Below, piece after piece: positions 1 to 16,389 of a stretch of DNA of 20,591 nucleotides (the stretch's first letter is position 1; the number at the start of each line of letters is the position of its first letter). Made by a program: the position numbers and the translations under genes. The DNA is from a virus. The stretch is from positions 1 to 20,591 of the IMG/VR virus record IMGVR_UViG_3300017706_000834; one strand, given 5' to 3'. The notes under the pieces were generated by a model that saw nothing but the letters and a program-made list of their open reading frames with translations, did no database searches and was not told the DNA's origin.

Positions 1-1728
1 CAACACTCGAACCCCATCATAATTTCGTGTTTGTCCTTCGAGTCGAGCGCCCAGGTTGACGGCATCTCCGATAACGGAATAGTCAAATCTAGATTCTGAT
101 CCCATGTTTCCGACGATACATGTACCGGTGTTGATACCAATGCCAATATCAATCCTAGGTAAACCTTGTTCTTCAAGTTCTTGTATAAGTACATCTGCAG
201 CCTCGCATATTTCTATAGATGTTTGCACAGCTTTAAAGGCATGGTCTTCGCATTCAAGCGGAGCATTCCAAAAAGCCATGATACAATCACCCATAAATTT
301 ATCTATGGTTCCACCGTTCTTTAAAACGATTTTTGTCATAGTATCTAAATAATTATTTATAAGAATTACTAACCCTTCTGGGTCGTCATTGTTTTTATAA
401 TGTTCTGATATTGGAGTAAAGCCACATATATCCATAAACATAAAGGTCATTTCTTTTCTTTCACCGCCAAGTTTAAGTAGTGATGGGTCCTTTTGTAATT
501 GTTTAACTAAGTCAGGAGATACGTATGTACCAAATTGTTTCTTTACTTGTTGTCTTAATACGAACTGTTTGTAAAAATTATTAAAACTCGATGAGGTGAG
601 TAAAAGTATATATATTATTAGAGTAGCTGATAAATCGAGGAGTATAGAAAATTCGTACCAGGCGTAATAAGAAGCAAAGCTTACAGCGAATGCAGAGCCG
701 ACGAAGGATACAGCACCGACCCATATCGGAAGATAGTATACTGATAGAACAATCAAAAGAGAACCAAACAGAATCATTGCAAGTTCAGCAAGATAAGTCC
801 ATTGAGGCCGTGATATAGGATTATCTGATATTATTGTTTGTAATGCATTTGCTTGAATCTCATGAGGATATAATAAACCAGCTGGCGTAGATACTTGAGG
901 AACAATACCTTTCGCTGTTACTCCTACAATAACTGTCTTTCCTTTTAAATCTGGTAATGGTTGGCCATCATAATCAATTGATTCAAACTGTGTATTCCAT
1001 TTTAACCATATACTTCCTCTCTCATCTGTTGGTATTATAAAAGGTCTTAATATAATAGATTCTATTCCTGATTCGTTTAATTTAACTGTATAAGATTTCT
1101 TTCCTTGCATTGCTCGTACTGTTTCTAAAGCAAATGATGGATATAAATCTCCGTTAACTTGAGACATTAATGGTATTCTTCTTGTAAGGTTATCAACTTC
1201 AGGAGCTCCATTTAATAATCCTGCTCCCCAAGCTTCTGATTCCAGTATATCGATATTAGTTATTAATCCATTATAACGATATGTTAAATCTAATACATCT
1301 CCTGAATAACCAAACGTTGCGTAACCAACATAAGGAGCCTTTGATGACCTACCATTACTATCTGCGTCTTGAGAAAGTATAACACCGTTATCTTTTATCC
1401 ATGATGCAAATATTTCATCTCCACCAAACCTATCTTCCTCTGGAAACATTATAGTGAACCCTATCATACCAGCATTCGAGTTTCGTAAATCAGATATCAC
1501 TGCTGCGTGATTCTGACGTGGCCAAGGGTATTGTCCATAAGCTTCGAGTGAAGACTCGGATATGTTAATCAACACTATATCGTTTGATTGCTCTACTGGT
1601 ATTGATTGTATATATTGGTCAAATATACTGAGTCTAAATTGTTCTAATAACTGAGGGTCTGATATTCTTACTCCTAAAAGTGTAATACCAATTACTATAG
1701 TAGTCCATATTGAAGTTAAATATTTCAT
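1..1728 (-). CDS. CHASE2-domain class III nucleotidyl cyclase, 3' end beyond window
   Basis: 576 codons are visible and the frame is open to the window edge, so the C-terminus is missing. The ATG at 1728 begins with a hydrophobic segment (about residues 3-20). A periplasmic CHASE2 sensor region follows to about 285, then about three transmembrane helices (about 295-385), then a linker reading KKQFGTYVSP. The cyclase domain starts near 428. Its catalytic residues are all present: metal-binding D433 (in FMDICGFT) and D481 (in FMGDCIMAF), purine-specifying K477 and D555, and transition-state N558 and R562 (in GDAVNLGAR). The Lys/Asp pair favours ATP, so adenylyl cyclase making cAMP at the inner membrane is the best reading. 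The gene lies 14 bases after a curlin gene and is last in the curli cassette. In bacteria CHASE2 cyclases are often found near FecR-domain genes, as here. A class III cyclase is unexpected in a phage. The host signal sensed is unknown. Confidence 0.93.
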   Translation of the reverse strand, partial: MKYLTSIWTTIVIGITLLGVRISDPQLLEQFRLSIFDQYIQSIPVEQSNDIVLINISESSLEAYGQYPWPRQNHAAVISDLRNSNAGMIGFTIMFPEEDRFGGDEIFASWIKDNGVILSQDADSNGRSSKAPYVGYATFGYSGDVLDLTYRYNGLITNIDILESEAWGAGLLNGAPEVDNLTRRIPLMSQVNGDLYPSFALETVRAMQGKKSYTVKLNESGIESIILRPFIIPTDERGSIWLKWNTQFESIDYDGQPLPDLKGKTVIVGVTAKGIVPQVSTPAGLLYPHEIQANALQTIISDNPISRPQWTYLAELAMILFGSLLIVLSVYYLPIWVGAVSFVGSAFAVSFASYYAWYEFSILLDLSATLIIYILLLTSSSFNNFYKQFVLRQQVKKQFGTYVSPDLVKQLQKDPSLLKLGGERKEMTFMFMDICGFTPISEHYKNNDDPEGLVILINNYLDTMTKIVLKNGGTIDKFMGDCIMAFWNAPLECEDHAFKAVQTSIEICEAADVLIQELEEQGLPRIDIGIGINTGTCIVGNMGSESRFDYSVIGDAVNLGARLEGQTRNYDGVRVL

Positions 1729-1742
1729 AAAGTGTAATACTA

Positions 1743-2501
1743 TTATTGTTGTGTTACTGTCGTATTGCATCCACCAACTGTCATACAGTTAACAGATAAA
1801 TTATATGTTTGGTTAGTCGTACTCATTTGTTTTAAAATTAAATCAGTTCCATAGAGACCATCAAGAGTTATATTTGCATTATGAGTAGCACCATTACCTT
1901 TTTGACGAATGAATACATCGTTATAGTCATTGTAAATTGTAAGACCTATATTTTTTGCACCGTTACTTTGTTGTTTTATTTTGACCTCATTATAATCTCC
2001 AGCTAAATGTAAATCAAAGTTATGACCGTCAAGCGCACCTGTCTGATTTGTTTGTTGAACTGCTAAATTATTATAATCACCATACATTGTAATACCTATG
2101 TCATGACCACCTGTTTCATAGCTATCACCATACCAATCTAAATTAGTTTCTGACTCAAGAACATCCCAAGCAACACCTTGAGCAAGTTTCATTTGATTAC
2201 CAGTACCAGTTATTTCATCGAATACAATACTATTAGTGAGCACTGAAGTACCGGTATTATATTGAACTAAGTACATATTTAAACTTGATGATGATATAAA
2301 TGAATTAGTATCAAACATACCAATTTCATTATCTTGGCCAATTTGTTCTATACCTAATTGAAATGTATCGCCAGTTTGTTCTATTGCAATAACATTATCC
2401 TCTGCTTTTGAATCAAATGCTACCATCATTAAGAACATAATAAGCGATACAGCTAATAATGGTGCCATGTTAATTAAAAAGTTTTTATCGTGTTTATCCA
2501 T
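1743..2501 (-). CDS. Curlin-like secreted repeat protein (CsgA/CsgB type)
   Basis: 252 residues. I start it at the ATG at 2501; the frame extends to a TTG at 2543. An N-terminal hydrophobic segment (about residues 12-30) ending near SKA resembles a signal peptide. The mature part is rich in N, Q, G, T and D and has degenerate curlin-type repeats. GDYNNLAVQQ (141), GDYNEVKIKQ (168) and NDYNDVFIRQ (191) are each followed by an NG or QTG turn, and an N-terminal unit reads IEQIGQDNEIG. This matches the strand-turn-strand units of amyloid curlins, with Q and N at ladder positions. It aligns along its length with the 4411 gene (for example EQIGQDNEIG against DQVGYGNKMG), so the two are paralogs. 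Both end with a Cys pair (here C239/C245). A late box at 2598-2605 could give it extra transcription. The likely route is export through CsgG. Assignment as major or minor curlin is not possible. Confidence 0.8.
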   Translation of the reverse strand: MDKHDKNFLINMAPLLAVSLIMFLMMVAFDSKAEDNVIAIEQTGDTFQLGIEQIGQDNEIGMFDTNSFISSSSLNMYLVQYNTGTSVLTNSIVFDEITGTGNQMKLAQGVAWDVLESETNLDWYGDSYETGGHDIGITMYGDYNNLAVQQTNQTGALDGHNFDLHLAGDYNEVKIKQQSNGAKNIGLTIYNDYNDVFIRQKGNGATHNANITLDGLYGTDLILKQMSTTNQTYNLSVNCMTVGGCNTTVTQQ

Positions 2502-2574
2502 TATGATGAGTATACCTTTATTGTTTTTCTGCCATTTGTCCAAATTGATACAAGAGCTTTTCTTTTCTTTTTCA

Positions 2575-3738
2575 TTAGTTTACCTGCCTTATGTAAATAT
2601 TTATATCGTCTCCACCGTTCATTGTGATTGTTCCTTCATATCCATCAACTACAGTATTTAAATTAACAGCTGCTCCTGCTTCAAATGTAAGACTTATAAC
2701 ACCATTAATATCTCTATAGAATACAATACCTGCATCTTCTAAAAATATATTATATTGACTATCTTTATTCAGCCCAAGTTTAGCTCCTTCAAGTTTAAAC
2801 GCTGCGGTTCCACCAGTCGCTCCTTGTTTATCTCCAAGTACAACAGTAGTTTTAATTAATTCTTCTACAACATCTAAAAGGTCAGGTAAAAACTCACCAG
2901 CTAAAAAATCAACATCAATCCTACCATTTCGAGCGTCATAATCAGGATCGTTAGCATAGTCATCAAAGTCTTTTTCTAATTCATTATATTCAAGAAAATC
3001 TATATCAAGTATTCCTTTGTCTTTATTCGAATCATCATTTACCTGTTCTTCTATTGCTTCTCTTACTTCTGTTGGTGGATTAACAATAAACATATTATCA
3101 ATCATTGAGGGTGTAATACCTCCGATAGTAACAGGTTTAGTTGGCATTGTATTTAACGAAGATACCATTGTTGCTTGATAAGCTTGATTAAGTGTTATTA
3201 CTCCAGCTTCGTTTGTAACTGTAATCTCTCCTGATGGATCGCCATTTACATCAGGGAGTAACATAATTAATGACCTTCCAAGTTCATCAATAGTTGTTGT
3301 AAAATCTGTACCACGAATACCTATCGTGGCTGTTGGTGTTTGTATATCTATATTCGCTTTGTTCACTAATCCTAGAGAACCTGAAGCAAATCTTGCTGTT
3401 CCCATAGTAAACTTCATTGACATTTTAGAGAGTGATGGGTCTGGGTCATAATATATTTCATCAATTAACACTTCACTATGTTCTTTGATATCTAATTGAG
3501 CATCATCTAAAAACTTTATCTTAAGTTTACCATTTGCTGTTTCAGCCACATCATTTAACTGAATATCAGGTTGTACCTCATCAGTTATTTTTATTTGTTC
3601 TTGTTGTCTTTTAATTTGCGTAGAACCGGACTGCTCTACAATAGAACCTATAGGGTCTGCCGAAACAAACCCCACAAGTATAAGATTAAGTATCGTTAGC
3701 TGAATCTTTTTGATTGATTTGAATTGTTGCATTTTCAC
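2575..3738 (-). CDS. Exported FecR-domain protein
   Basis: 387 residues with an N-terminal signal peptide (LTILNLILVGFVSA, cut near residue 28). A FecR domain follows at about 30-200. It has the usual layout: an SGSTQIKR strand, VAETANGKLKIKFLDDAQL, a YYDPD turn, GTARFASG, and the hallmark TPTATIGIRGTDF near residues 135-147. The C-terminal half is acidic (about 220-290) and ends in a beta-rich region close to the stop. In iron regulation FecR is a periplasmic transducer, but stand-alone exported FecR domains often sit beside CHASE2 cyclases and surface polymers, as here. The gene lies between two curlin genes. Its start overlaps the upstream curlin by 53 bases with no strong ribosome site, suggesting translational coupling. 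A role as periplasmic sensor, or as partner for the curlins or CHASE2 domain, is inference. Confidence 0.85.
   Translation of the reverse strand: MKMQQFKSIKKIQLTILNLILVGFVSADPIGSIVEQSGSTQIKRQQEQIKITDEVQPDIQLNDVAETANGKLKIKFLDDAQLDIKEHSEVLIDEIYYDPDPSLSKMSMKFTMGTARFASGSLGLVNKANIDIQTPTATIGIRGTDFTTTIDELGRSLIMLLPDVNGDPSGEITVTNEAGVITLNQAYQATMVSSLNTMPTKPVTIGGITPSMIDNMFIVNPPTEVREAIEEQVNDDSNKDKGILDIDFLEYNELEKDFDDYANDPDYDARNGRIDVDFLAGEFLPDLLDVVEELIKTTVVLGDKQGATGGTAAFKLEGAKLGLNKDSQYNIFLEDAGIVFYRDINGVISLTFEAGAAVNLNTVVDGYEGTITMNGGDDINIYIRQVN
2598..2605 (-). promoter_or_regulatory. T4-type late promoter box TATAAATA
   Basis: An exact TATAAATA on the minus strand lies within the last codons of the FecR-domain gene, about 97 bases before the ATG of the curlin gene at 2501 (55 before the TTG at 2543). 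In T4-like phages this octamer is the -10 of late promoters read by the gp55 sigma factor. AT-rich sequence can produce it by chance, so it is moderately supported. Confidence 0.5.
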
Positions 3739-4411
3739 TATCTACATCAAGTGTAATAATACCTTTACAAGTGTTAACACCTGTAGGACACGTACCAGAA
3801 ATCTGGTTAATGTCTACATCAGCTCCGGAACCATCGAGAATAAAATTAATCTCATTATAGTATCCATCTTTTTGTAAAGTATTAATATTATTTGTGCTAC
3901 CTGTAACATCAAAGTTCCATATAACATCATCAGTTTCTATGTCAACATCAAATACGTTTGAACTACCTAAAACTGTTAAATCAAAATTTAATCTTTCCGC
4001 GCTAAACGCTGCACCTTGGTCTAGGTCCATAGTATTAGAGTCACCAGTTATATCAACTAAATAGTTTGAACTATCAGCTGAACCAGTTTCTCCAATCATC
4101 CAATCCCAAACATTACTATCACCAGTCCACTCTAAAGTGTATGATGATGAGTCGGCTGTAACTTTACCGAAAAGTAAATTGTTATTACCTATTTGGTCGA
4201 TATTGAAAGTTAACGATGACCCAGTAATTGGCATAGCGGCTGAACTACTTTCAAAGTTATTCAGTCCCATTTTGTTACCATATCCTACCTGGTCAATATA
4301 CAAAGTAAGTGTATCACCTACTTGTGCAATATTAATTTCATTATCATCAGATGCTGCTGCGAAAGAATTTAAACTAAAAAATAAACTTAGGCCTAAAATA
4401 TATTTTGTCAT
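3686..4411 (-). CDS. Curlin-like secreted repeat protein, paralog of the 2501 gene
   Basis: 241 residues from the ATG at 4411, which overlaps the csgG stop as ATGA and is preceded by AAGGA. A clear signal peptide (MTKYILGLSLFFSLNSFAAA) is cut near residue 20. Curlin-type units follow: NEINIAQVGD (24-33), LYIDQVGYGNKMG (37-49) and FNIDQIGNNN (69-78). Weaker GDSN/GSTN turns occur at about 97, 123, 149 and 171, and an NEINF strand near 186. Cys208 and Cys215 form a pair near the C-terminus, as in the other curlin. The protein is acidic, with low lysine in the mature part. Being directly after csgG and coupled to it suggests it is a CsgG substrate, either fibre subunit or nucleator. The repeats are more degenerate than in enteric CsgA, so amyloid formation is inferred. 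Confidence 0.8.
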   Translation of the reverse strand: MTKYILGLSLFFSLNSFAAASDDNEINIAQVGDTLTLYIDQVGYGNKMGLNNFESSSAAMPITGSSLTFNIDQIGNNNLLFGKVTADSSSYTLEWTGDSNVWDWMIGETGSADSSNYLVDITGDSNTMDLDQGAAFSAERLNFDLTVLGSSNVFDVDIETDDVIWNFDVTGSTNNINTLQKDGYYNEINFILDGSGADVDINQISGTCPTGVNTCKGIITLDVDSENATIQINQKDSANDT

Positions 4412-5325
4412 TTTACTTTTCCTTCTATTTTCCAAAATCCTCTATCATGACCTTGGTTGATTAATTCCAATACTCCGGCCTCAATGGCTGTTCGTACTGC
4501 GTATGTCACTGACTCATTTTTACCCACTCCGTCTTCATACTCTATCAATTGTGTACCTTCTTCGATAAATCGAAAAATATCGCCGCCACTACCGTAAGAT
4601 AGGATAGTCTTCTTACTTTGGACGTTTAATAAAACTTCTCCAGTTAGAACAGATACTGCTCTAATTGAAACTGTTACAACATCTTTACGATATTGTCTGC
4701 TTATTCCTATACCTAAAGTTCTAGCGCCACGGCCGCCGGATAGGATGTTTGTATCATAACCAATTATACCACCTTCTATTATCATTCCAGCAAATAATAA
4801 TGGTTGAATACCCTTTGCTTCTTCTTCACCTTTTGCTTTTGCTATATCTTGTCGTGCACTTCGTATAATTTGTCGTTCTCTTACTAGGTTATCTAATCCT
4901 TGTCTCTCTACAACTCTAAACCAACTTCCATTACCAGCACTCTTTAAAGCATCAATTAACATTTCAGTACTACCTTGAGTAACTGCTGTTGAAAAATCTG
5001 CAATACCTTCTCTTGCTTTTCTTTGTCCTGTTTTATCTGCAAATGCATATACCGCAACTACAGGTTTAGATTCAGCTGGTGGTAATTGTAATAACTTTAT
5101 AAATGATGGTAACTTAACAACTTCTGGTTCATCGACACATATAAATGGCATTGCTCTTTCAAATGTTCTACCTGAAGCTTTTGCATAATTCCATAGGTCA
5201 TGGTTATACTCTTCTCCCCATGTATCTTTATTACAATCCTGTGGATTTTCTGAGTATCTTGGTACAGCTGCACAGCTAGAAAGTAGTGCTATTACAAGAC
5301 TAACCGCCGTCAGTTGACGTACCAT
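4408..5325 (-). CDS. csgG: CsgG-family curli secretion lipoprotein (outer-membrane pore)
   Basis: 305 residues. The ATG at 5325 is chosen because GGGAG lies about 5 bases upstream. A short signal ends in a lipobox, ALLSSC, with acylated Cys18. The body follows CsgG closely: AVYAFADKTGQ, FSTAVTQGST, WFRVVERQGLDNLVRERQ, GMIIEGGIIGYDTN, SGGRGARTLGIG, KTILSYGSGGDIFRFIE, AIEAGVLELINQGHDRGFW. CsgG forms a nonameric outer-membrane channel that exports curlins. In the constriction loop the Phe before STAV is kept, while the enteric Tyr is replaced and the loop appears one residue longer (KAREGIADF against KPYPASNF). It is slightly longer than enteric CsgG (277), partly through extra N-terminal sequence with Cys residues. 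It sits between csgF (overlap) and a curlin (ATGA overlap). Confident family call; activity not shown. Confidence 0.96.
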   Translation of the reverse strand: MVRQLTAVSLVIALLSSCAAVPRYSENPQDCNKDTWGEEYNHDLWNYAKASGRTFERAMPFICVDEPEVVKLPSFIKLLQLPPAESKPVVAVYAFADKTGQRKAREGIADFSTAVTQGSTEMLIDALKSAGNGSWFRVVERQGLDNLVRERQIIRSARQDIAKAKGEEEAKGIQPLLFAGMIIEGGIIGYDTNILSGGRGARTLGIGISRQYRKDVVTVSIRAVSVLTGEVLLNVQSKKTILSYGSGGDIFRFIEEGTQLIEYEDGVGKNESVTYAVRTAIEAGVLELINQGHDRGFWKIEGKVK

Positions 5326-5839
5326 AATCGCTCCCAAAGTTACCAGTACCTATTGGTATCTCAATAATTGTTTCAGTACCATTTGCATCAATTATAGACA
5401 TTTTAATATATTCTGAACCATCTTCATTGGTTATCACTTCATATGTAACAACCGATCCTTCTAATGTAAATGAACCGAATCTTACTGCACCATCATTTTG
5501 AAACATACTTTCAACAAGTTGTTTAGACATTTGAGCATATATTCTACTTTCCAAGTTTCTTATAAACTTAGCAAGAGTAGTATTCTCTGCTTCTCTTTGC
5601 GCTGCCTTTTCTGCTGCAGCTAATGCTTCTTCTATAGATTTCTTACGAGAAAACTCTTGATTCTCTACAGTAAGATAATGTGAAGCAGTACCTATTCCAC
5701 TAAAGGAAGGATTTTTAAATTTGTGTACTATCTCTGTAGCACTTACACCAAGACTTGATATTGATAAAATAAAGATACTCATTAAAGCAAATGCTTCTGC
5801 TTTATACTTCATCTTTTCCATTTTGTTTTTTCTTTTCAT
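5300..5839 (-). CDS. csgF: CsgF-family curli assembly protein
   Basis: 179 residues from the first ATG; starts at 5821 or 5812 are also possible and would give a more typical signal peptide (ALMSIFILSISSLGVSA). The mature N-terminus has the CsgF signature FKNPSFSGIGTASHYL. In characterised CsgF this is the part that inserts into the CsgG vestibule. An Ala/Glu-rich helix (EALAAAEKAAQREAE) follows, then a beta-rich C-terminal region (YEVITNEDGSEYIKMSIID) and a Gly/Ser/Thr tail. It is longer than E. coli CsgF (138), mainly through the middle helix. The gene overlaps the preceding coiled-coil gene by 38 bases and csgG by 26, indicating coupled translation. CsgF normally caps CsgG at the cell surface and links curlin nucleation to the pore. 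Confidence 0.9.
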   Translation of the reverse strand: MKRKNKMEKMKYKAEAFALMSIFILSISSLGVSATEIVHKFKNPSFSGIGTASHYLTVENQEFSRKKSIEEALAAAEKAAQREAENTTLAKFIRNLESRIYAQMSKQLVESMFQNDGAVRFGSFTLEGSVVTYEVITNEDGSEYIKMSIIDANGTETIIEIPIGTGNFGSDYGTSTDGG

Positions 5840-6071
5840 TTTCTTTATATTCCAATATTGTATCTACTTTTTGTTGTAATCTTATAAGATCTTGGTCAAG
5901 CATTCTCATCTGGTCAATCACTTTTATTAATTGAAAATGCATTTTTTCTGTTGCAGGGTCTAAATGTTCTTGTATAAAGTTATAAACAAAATATACAAAA
6001 TATCCTAAACCTACAACCATGACAGTTGGAAAACCATACTTGGTTACAATCTCTGTTATTTCAAATTCCAT
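5802..6071 (-). CDS. Small single-TM, coiled-coil membrane protein (holin-like layout)
   Basis: 89 residues, with AAGAG 7 bases upstream of the ATG. Residues about 10-33 (YGFPTVMVVGLGYFVYFVYNFI) form one transmembrane helix. Residues 40-75 form an amphipathic coiled coil with L/I/M heptads (LIKVIDQMRMLDQDLIRL), and the tail is highly charged. It shares the pattern I-x-x-x-G-x-P-x-x-x-x-V-x-G-Y-F with the gene just upstream, so the two are tandem paralogs. One TM helix plus coiled coil is the shape of BhlA/UviB-type holin-like proteins, and the endolysin lies about 1.1 kb upstream. It overlaps csgF, so a role in the curli apparatus is also possible. No function can be assigned from sequence alone. 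Confidence 0.75.
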   Translation of the reverse strand: MEFEITEIVTKYGFPTVMVVGLGYFVYFVYNFIQEHLDPATEKMHFQLIKVIDQMRMLDQDLIRLQQKVDTILEYKENEKKKQNGKDEV

Positions 6072-6072
6072 A

Positions 6073-6369
6073 CTAATCTCTTCTTACGTCGAGCTTCCCG
6101 TCTTCAATAAAGTTTTCTGCCCGAGCTATCCTTTCGATATCGGGTCTTAATTCTAATGCGCTACTTACAAGTAAATCTATTTTAATCATTTCGTTACTCA
6201 TTGTTCTTGCTCTATTTTCTAATGAGGTACAAAACATTGTAAGCGTATTGATATCATCAACCACGCCTTCGAGTATTTGTTTTATTATAACAAATATAAA
6301 ATATCCCATTACTAAAGCACCCGCAATAGGTAACCCTAGATCGGATATGAGCGTAAATATTTCACCCAT
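6073..6369 (-). CDS. Small single-TM, coiled-coil membrane protein, paralog of the 6071 gene
   Basis: 98 residues. A transmembrane helix spans about residues 12-35 (LGLPIAGALVMGYFIFVII). A predicted cytoplasmic or periplasmic helical region follows (INTLTMFCTSLENRARTMSNE), then a charged C-terminus ending DVRRD. This type of protein is, from memory, conserved in T4-like marine phages. The start codon shares one base with the stop of the 6620 gene (TAATG), and the stop is one base from the next start, so it is co-translated in the late cassette. Holin or holin-regulator is a reasonable hypothesis because of the layout and the nearby lysozyme, but nothing in the sequence proves it. Confidence 0.75.
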   Translation of the reverse strand: MGEIFTLISDLGLPIAGALVMGYFIFVIIKQILEGVVDDINTLTMFCTSLENRARTMSNEMIKIDLLVSSALELRPDIERIARAENFIEDGKLDVRRD

Positions 6370-6653: not shown

Positions 6654-6661
6654 TATTTATA
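6654..6661 (-). promoter_or_regulatory. T4-type late promoter box TATAAATA for the curli cassette
   Basis: Exact TATAAATA on the minus strand in a true intergenic gap, just after a terminator and about 34 bases before the ATG at 6620. Placed between an upstream terminator and the first gene of the 6620-to-1 operon, it is the best-positioned late box in the window. It predicts gp55-dependent late transcription of CsgF, CsgG, the curlins, the FecR protein and the cyclase. Confidence 0.75.
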
Positions 6662-6732: not shown

Positions 6733-7032
6733 TTATTTTTTTGTCGTAGTTTTCTTTGCCCTAGGTTTTCTCGCTGGAGCTTTCTTAGCTACTGTTTTCT
6801 TAGCTGCAGGCTTTTTAGCCGCTGGCTTTTTCTTGACCGGAGCTTTCTTTTTCTTAGCTGGTGTTTTACCATCTACGAAAGCTTCGTTCTTAGCAGTAGT
6901 AGGGTCATCTTTTATATAATGTCCCTTTTCATTTCTTGCTCTAACTCCTGAACCGGGTTTCATTGAATCGTATATTGCATAACCAACTATGGCTACCACG
7001 ACTCCAACAATCACTATGAATGATATATCCAT
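6733..7032 (-). CDS. Membrane-anchored protein with histone-H1-like Lys/Ala/Pro tail
   Basis: 99 residues. The ATG at 7032 is chosen because GGAGG sits 8 bases upstream; the frame also has ATGs up to 7050. An N-terminal transmembrane helix spans about residues 4-22 (FIVIVGVVVAIVGYAIY). A short polar region follows, and the last ~40 residues are almost entirely K, A, P, R and T in repeats of the type KKPAAKK and AKKAPARK. Such tails occur in histone H1-like and nucleoid proteins and bind nucleic acid or acidic polymers. The pairing with a membrane helix is odd. It has its own late box (7057-7064) and its own terminator, so it is a monocistronic late gene. Tethering DNA to the membrane, membrane disruption during lysis, or binding acidic curlins are all guesses. 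Confidence 0.85.
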   Translation of the reverse strand: MDISFIVIVGVVVAIVGYAIYDSMKPGSGVRARNEKGHYIKDDPTTAKNEAFVDGKTPAKKKKAPVKKKPAAKKPAAKKTVAKKAPARKPRAKKTTTKK

Positions 7033-7046
7033 AATATTTACCTCCA

Positions 7047-7196
7047 TCATTTATTATATTTATAGTTAACGAATTCTTTCCAAGGGAAAAAATCCTTTCT
7101 CTCATGGCAATAGAAACGTCCTTTATAGTTCGCTTCTATACCTCTTCGAGTCTTTTCATCAGCCTTTCGGCTCTGTTTGTTACTTGCTTGTACCAT
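7047..7196 (-). CDS. Possible small overlapping ORF after the endolysin
   Basis: A 49-codon frame starts at an ATG inside the lysozyme gene and runs 89 bases beyond the lysozyme stop. The part outside the overlap is rich in aromatic residues (YKGRFYCHERKDFFPWKEF), which is unlike random translated sequence. Its last codons (NYKYN) contain the late box for the next gene, the same nesting seen at 8968-8975. The start has only a weak ribosome site, and the overlap with lysozyme is about 60 bases. It could equally be untranslated leader. No family is recognised. Confidence 0.35.
   Translation of the reverse strand: MVQASNKQSRKADEKTRRGIEANYKGRFYCHERKDFFPWKEFVNYKYNK
7057..7064 (-). promoter_or_regulatory. 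T4-type late promoter box TATAAATA
   Basis: Exact TATAAATA on the minus strand, 25 bases before the ATG at 7032 and followed by a strong GGAGG ribosome site. Together with the terminator at 6685-6708 it defines a single-gene late transcription unit. Confidence 0.72.
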
Positions 7197-15725: not shown

Positions 15726-15949
15726 AGCTCTAGGTCCGTAAGTTCTTTAAGTTCTGTATATCCACCAATATTACTACCATCAACTATGATTTGTGGAAAG
15801 GTCCTTGCGCCTGGAAATTTTTCTAGCATTTCTTCTCTTGTAAAATCAAATGATAATAATTTATATTGATAATCCATTTTCTTTTGTTCACATAAAGCTT
15901 TTGCCATATCGCAATATGGACATTGTTTCTTACCCCAAATCTCTATCAT
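15722..15949 (-). CDS. Glutaredoxin
   Basis: 75 residues. Active-site CPYC at 10-13 (GKKQCPYCDMAKALCEQKK), a TFPQIIVDG segment with the cis-Pro near residue 52, and IGGYTELKEL near the C-terminus that binds glutathione. Corresponds in role to T4 nrdC: it reduces the ribonucleotide reductase encoded upstream. Starts inside the stop of the cytochrome gene (ATGA). Length is normal for short phage glutaredoxins. Confidence 0.93.
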   Translation of the reverse strand: MIEIWGKKQCPYCDMAKALCEQKKMDYQYKLLSFDFTREEMLEKFPGARTFPQIIVDGSNIGGYTELKELTDLEL

Positions 15950-16389
15950 TTCATTGTCTCCTCTATGAATTTACCGATTGTTGTGATATCACTATCTGAT
16001 AACATACCTGCTTGAGCCCACATTGTTGAACTCATAGGTCCGACTTGTTCTCTATTTTGATATGCATATAATCTACTTACAATGTAATCTGAACTCTGAC
16101 CTGCAAGTTTAGGGAAAGGACCATTACCTTGTCCTTCTGTTCCGTGACATGCTGCGCATCCAGCCCATAATCCTTTTATAGAACTGAATTCGTCTTCAGC
16201 TGCTAATGCTTTTTTCCTTTGTTCTATTTCTGGTGCAGTACCATTTAATGCTACATATTCTTCGAAGCATTCTCCAGTACACGAATGTCCACCGCCATAT
16301 CCACTATACGCCATGTTTGGCATAATCATTATCATAAAAAATATTCCGATTGCTGAGCAACCTAATAAAACCTTTCCTAATTCTCTCAT
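15946..16389 (-). CDS. Exported class I c-type cytochrome
   Basis: 147 residues. An N-terminal hydrophobic segment (about 7-28, VLLGCSAIGIFFMIMIMPNMA) is a signal peptide or membrane anchor. A short linker with C37 and C41 follows, then a cytochrome domain. Heme attachment C78-AA-C81-H82 (GCAACHGTEGQGNGPFPKLAGQ) and a likely axial Met119 (REQVGPMSSTMW) with LSDSDITTIGKFI fit the cytochrome c553/c4 type. It would carry electrons in the periplasm, dependent on host heme-lyase machinery. It is translationally coupled to nrdB (ATGA) and to glutaredoxin (ATGA), so it is a fixed member of the nrd operon and not an assembly artefact. Such a gene is unusual in a phage and suggests support of host respiration during infection. 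Confidence 0.92.
   Translation of the reverse strand: MRELGKVLLGCSAIGIFFMIMIMPNMAYSGYGGGHSCTGECFEEYVALNGTAPEIEQRKKALAAEDEFSSIKGLWAGCAACHGTEGQGNGPFPKLAGQSSDYIVSRLYAYQNREQVGPMSSTMWAQAGMLSDSDITTIGKFIEETMK

Follow-up and report, generated by a model that had tools for sequence, protein, structure and literature searches.

A CHASE2-linked nucleotide cyclase closes a phage curli operon

The analysed stretch of DNA, hereafter the window, is a linear virus record of 20,591 bases carrying the T4-like genes NrdA, NrdB, PhoH, RNase H and lysozyme. This T4-like marine phage carries a curli (amyloid-fibre secretion) operon in the order csgF-csgG-curlin-FecR-curlin-cyclase, in which the cyclase comes last (Table 1). 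The succession csgF, csgG, curlin-like, FecR and AC is that of the pelagiphage curli (T8SS) clusters, and the Pfam matches of the neighbouring genes bore out the original prediction that the cyclase lies at the end of a curli operon. The second curlin-like protein had no Pfam match; it has relatives of 31-73% identity in most loci. Phage relatives of the FecR-domain protein begin with an N-terminal stretch resembling an export signal, and the structure model of this protein was of low confidence (pLDDT 66). Elsewhere in the window, positions 15946-16389 (minus strand), adjoining NrdB, encode a probably exported cytochrome c-like protein (Pfam, 1.7e-8). A small Lys/Ala/Pro-rich protein encoded at 6733-7050 (minus strand) gave a weak histone-like HC2 match, below the cut-off.

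Table 1 Features of the cyclase gene and of the operon that it closes (positions in the window)
Feature	Position	Strand	Basis
CHASE2 - three TM - class III (IIIb-type) nucleotide cyclase	1..1728	-	ORF, Pfam, AlphaFold2 model
CHASE2 sensor domain, residues 14-327, predicted periplasmic	748..1689	-	PF05226; model
Three TM-length helices, residues 310-399	532..801	-	AlphaFold2 secondary structure of homologue L005
Catalytic domain, residues 421-576, incomplete	1..468	-	PF00211; alignment with CyaB
Active-site codons D433 (430-432), K477 (298-300), D481 (286-288)	within 43..432	-	
Active-site codons S551 (76-78, purine-selecting), N558 (55-57), R562 (43-45)	within 43..432	-	
Exported curlin-repeat-like protein, second copy	1743..2543	-	Placed as the Melnitz 'curlin associated repeat protein'
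Exported FecR-domain protein	2575..3738	-	PF04773, E=3.1e-7
Exported curlin-repeat-like protein, first copy	3686..4435	-	Position and similarity to HTVC008M 'curlin-associated protein'
CsgG outer-membrane pore lipoprotein	4408..5337	-	PF03783, E=3.6e-53
CsgF	5300..5839	-	PF10614, E=3.1e-15
Two small paralogous proteins, probably single-TM	5802-6071, 6073-6369	-	Both match phrog_18771, no assigned function
TATAAATA, candidate T4-type late promoter of the operon	6654..6661	-	Position conserved in relatives

The cyclase open reading frame starts at position 1728 (alternative start 1770) and runs to the window edge, beyond which about 36 C-terminal residues are missing. It matched CHASE2 (PF05226, E=1.2e-41) and, over the incomplete catalytic domain, Guanylate_cyc (PF00211, E=1.8e-15); the latter match reached E=2.2e-19 on a complete homologue. 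In the 80 viral relatives, the frame stays open past the position of the window edge. In near homologues, 35-38 further residues continue through a conserved VKGK motif to a stop at 611-614 amino acids, indicating that the cut is the contig end only and not a frameshift or truncation. A truncated or decayed gene was ruled out by these open frames together with the purifying selection described below. The cyclase belongs to phrog_35576, a PHROGs family listed without function.

Domain order was examined on an AlphaFold2 model of L005, a complete homologue 94% identical to the window cyclase (mean pLDDT 82.5). The model comprises an N-terminal helix (residues 7-23), CHASE2, three TM-length helices (310-399) and a class III catalytic fold. 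In both sequence and model, CHASE2 is thus framed by an N-terminal TM segment and a TM bundle, and the architecture proposed originally, CHASE2 with a TM bundle and a class III cyclase, held in Pfam and in the model. The window gene is a genuine inner-membrane CHASE2 sensor fused to a class III nucleotide cyclase. Among the structure matches listed, none was a solved structure for the CHASE2 part, which is no evidence of absence.

The active site resembles that of class IIIb and is kept by selection

The two metal-binding Asp, the Lys, the Asn and the Arg of class III cyclases are all present. Five of the six key residues named in the original prediction (D433, K477, D481, N558 and R562) stood where predicted; the sixth, D555, is not catalytic and fell on an Arg in a profile alignment with CyaB of P. 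aeruginosa. The purine-selecting position is Ser551, 7 residues before N558 and aligned with the CyaB Thr. Class IIIa enzymes would have an Asp at this site, whereas class IIIb enzymes combine a Thr or similar residue with a Lys; the window cyclase has Ser and Lys, which comes close to the Lys/Thr combination of class IIIb adenylate cyclases. Judging from this likeness, the substrate would be ATP. As judged from its sequence, the enzyme is likely to be active as an adenylate cyclase.

The catalytic residues were invariant in 82 of the 83 phage copies and common to 80 bacterial relatives. Ser551 was found in the same proportion of phage sequences (82/83), the sole exception being Methylophilales phage Melnitz, and in the bacterial relatives the position was always Ser (70 of 80) or Thr (10). 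In the Melnitz homologue (L003, 10001-12049), position 551 is Asp, the transition-state Asn558 is replaced by Ser and there is a C-terminal extension; this enzyme may be impaired or specialised.

The catalytic part of the model was closest to CyaB (Z 24.3, rmsd 1.6 over 176 residues), followed by Spirulina CyaC (Z 23.1). The window cyclase shares with these class IIIb enzymes the catalytic fold and the Lys plus Thr/Ser purine site; it differs from them in its sensor domain. In class IIIb, Thr or Ser at the purine site goes with a response to bicarbonate. The enzyme might then mainly answer intracellular bicarbonate/CO2, with CHASE2 as a secondary input, and the proximity to CyaB and CyaC, the latter crystallised with bicarbonate (1wc5, 1wc6), speaks for this. 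We give this explanation only a slim chance, as Ser stands in place of Thr and the operon context points to the envelope.

Comparison with eleven relatives at 84-95% identity gave a dN/dS of 0.09-0.14, indicating that the cyclase is under purifying selection. For the catalytic domain, the proportion of amino-acid-changing differences was 0.003-0.047, compared with 0.029-0.143 for CHASE2, and the catalytic domain had the lower value in 9 of the 11. These data bear on whether the cyclase is a passenger, moved with FecR in a mobile envelope module and having a structural or assembly role but none in signalling. Such a role would fit the observation that some curli clusters lack the cyclase gene or have it elsewhere (PMC9599517), as well as the loss of the transition-state Asn in Melnitz. 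It is very improbable given that the other 82 phage copies keep the catalytic residues and that conservation is higher in the catalytic domain than in CHASE2.

The operon is conserved, mosaic and probably expressed late

Conservation of the operon was assessed in the 40 viral loci whose upstream sequence extended over 5.5 kb or more. Of these, 37 had the two small TM-type genes, CsgF and CsgG, and 38 had the curlin-like and FecR genes. In the 37, the two small genes lie directly upstream of csgF and open the conserved block; their products may act in a holin-like or pore-associated way. A 1,499-base 'Salmonella phage' record with a CsgG-like gene (OR851715.1) is probably bacterial DNA.

Identities between the window and the relatives L004 and L007 varied along the operon, from 93-96% by domain in the cyclase to 73-74% in CsgG and 61% in the first curlin-like protein, a mosaic pointing to recombination within the operon. 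In the same two relatives, FecR is strongly diverged (about 80% identity in the FecR domain and 52-53% in the C-terminal rest) while CHASE2 remains at 93-95%, which argues against a tight co-adaptation of FecR and CHASE2. The divergence of FecR correlated with that of CHASE2 (r = 0.67, compared with 0.51 between CHASE2 and its own catalytic domain), a value that is not independent evidence because of shared ancestry and recombination within the operon.

The motif TATAAATA, which we take to be the T4-type late-promoter motif, is present at the operon head in most relatives. Across the viral operon regions, in counts that are not independent because many loci are related, it occurred 89 times on the operon strand versus 9 times on the opposite strand, and 24 of 36 loci had a copy 10-44 bases ahead of the sequence matching the first conserved gene. 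In four near relatives of the window, it lies about 290-300 bases ahead, before an extra small gene. In the window taken alone, the number of copies is unremarkable (8 versus 5 expected), but all 8 are on the gene strand. Late expression of the operon, as first proposed, is likely in view of the strand bias and the conserved position of the motif. A second copy of the motif was found at 2598-2605 (minus strand), some 55 bases upstream of the gene for the second curlin-like protein, with a similar arrangement in near relatives; the second curlin-like gene and the cyclase may thus have a late promoter of their own.

The cyclase is paired with FecR in bacteria, away from curli genes

In a quick tree with a midpoint root, the phage copies all grouped together, separate from 36 bacterial sequences (SH-aLRT 99). 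The nearest bacterial relatives were mostly from Alphaproteobacteria. At least 22 of 63 bacterial cyclase loci had a FecR-domain gene no more than 1.5 kb away, a lower bound since giant frames run off the fetched stretch in several other loci; FecR adjacency is therefore common but not universal. Profiles built from the phage genes detected no CsgG, CsgF or curlin gene in any of the bacterial loci. On the simplest reading of these sequences, the FecR-cyclase pair would be an older bacterial signalling unit, and its position among curli genes would stem from the phage lineage or from an unsampled donor.

Clustering of a CHASE2 cyclase with a FecR-domain protein has been reported independently in Campylobacterota (PMC9239204). 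The CHASE2 cyclases of Alphaproteobacteria and Campylobacterota resemble the phage enzyme in domain order, catalytic residues and FecR neighbour, but are about 100 residues longer, often have very large FecR proteins beside them and lack curli genes nearby. In Sinorhizobium, CHASE2 cyclases raise cAMP in response to a signal for which the outer-membrane protein NsrA is the sensing route (PMC13001267).

The likely hosts have almost no known machinery to read or make cAMP

Pelagibacter phage HTVC008M was the nearest isolate for the cyclase (45% identity), CsgG (53%) and RNase H (47%), and was not the nearest one for PhoH and NrdA. From isolates only 45-53% identical, a SAR11-type host is suggested. 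A host family of 117 genomes, partly incomplete, was assembled around a 1.2-Mb genome on a single contig. Of the two SAM-V riboswitches in this genome, one precedes a metY-like gene, as has been described for Ca. Pelagibacter ubique (PMC6061858, PMC2704228). SAM-V was detected in 66 of the 117 genomes versus 7 of 289 drawn from the class, and the family was taken as SAR11-type on this account.

The cNMP-binding domain PF00027 was found in 5 of the 117 genomes, some of these matches probably being contaminants. One has FNR-like cysteines, one lies in an ABC-transporter-like frame and three are in long frames. None of the 117 contained a class I cyclase. Class III cyclases scored above the cut-off in two, and both were rejected as host genes, since each sits on a phage contig that carries the curli block; the bins concerned (L182 and L183) thus hold phage contigs with the curli-FecR-cyclase block that give rise to false host cyclases. 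The class III search works on such genomes, as another AT-rich marine family yielded these enzymes in 26 of its 32 genomes. Seven phage records, including the complete HTVC008M and Melnitz, gave no match to a cNMP-binding domain. For the host of Melnitz, OM43 genomes were sought by way of methanol dehydrogenase and hexulose-phosphate synthase; the resulting family, which may be Methylophilaceae, had PF00027 in 54 of 57 genomes, the three negative ones being of 1.1-1.5 Mb, and its identity is too uncertain for a conclusion.

The original prediction suggested that the phage-made cAMP might act on CRP-like regulators of the host, which would reprogram host transcription. The enzyme looks active, with its invariant residues and purifying selection, and marine bacterial genomes carrying related cyclases had cNMP-binding proteins in 6 of 6 cases. 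The host of this exact phage is itself a prediction. The claim is nevertheless weakened: the inferred host family lacks class I and genuine class III cyclases and has almost no cNMP-binding proteins, and this undercuts the route through a host CRP, which we consider improbable if the host is SAR11.

Another explanation is that the host has no CRP and that cAMP is read by a non-CRP receptor, or that the cyclase serves a direct metabolic end. The strong conservation of the active site is consistent with this, as is the scarcity of PF00027 in the likely hosts and its absence from the phages. No candidate receptor emerged from a search limited to PF00027, and absence of this domain from partly incomplete genomes is no proof; we hold this explanation to be somewhat unlikely, with a better claim than the CRP route. 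With equal reserve, the phage may install a cAMP-making envelope sensor in hosts devoid of cAMP synthesis and of standard receptors, its product being read by an unfamiliar kind of receptor or used directly.

Relation to known systems and proposed model

The original prediction saw in such a cyclase a new way of sending second messengers during infection. Its novelty is not supported, since HTVC008M and Melnitz carry annotated cyclases, and a 2022 report (PMC9599517) describes AC and FecR in pelagiphage curli clusters, with an alphaproteobacterial origin and transfer between phage families; it also places phage curli clusters across the ocean, expressed at sea. The HTVC008M cyclase (AGE60353.1) is 45% identical over 98% of the query and lies in the order csgF-csgG-curlin-FecR-hypothetical-cyclase; its sequence is diverged and sits on another branch of the phage group. 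The Melnitz cyclase (QZI94833.1) shares architecture and operon but is only 36% identical and differs by Asp551, Ser558 and the C-terminal extension. Two further papers discuss phage CsgG/CsgF genes, and the cyclase is absent from both (PMC7029224, PMC9004378). Our literature search found no paper on CHASE2 cyclases in phages. CHASE2 is not mentioned in PMC9599517, nor are the active site and the missing cAMP machinery of the hosts described in its accessible part. Relative to the accessible parts of these papers, the present analysis adds the CHASE2 architecture, the cyclase-FecR pair in curli-free bacterial loci, the arrangement of late-promoter motifs and the almost complete lack of known cAMP machinery in the likely hosts.

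We propose that the operon would be transcribed late in infection, that CsgG and CsgF would form an outer-membrane pore, and that the curlin-like and FecR-domain proteins would go into the periplasm. There, CHASE2 would read the state of the FecR/curlin secretion step, and the cytoplasmic domain would turn ATP into cAMP. Secretion of FecR or curlin is plausible as the CHASE2 signal, if just short of an even call; the original suggestion that the cyclase might report curli assembly is likewise plausible. The model as a whole, a functional envelope-regulated class IIIb adenylate cyclase that came from bacteria together with its FecR partner and was built into a phage curli-secretion operon, is in our judgement evenly balanced between right and wrong.

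Collectively, conservation of the cyclase indicates that the phage curli module has a signalling function besides secretion. With almost no known cAMP machinery in the likely hosts, this raises a pointed question that experiments can address: what reads the cAMP?
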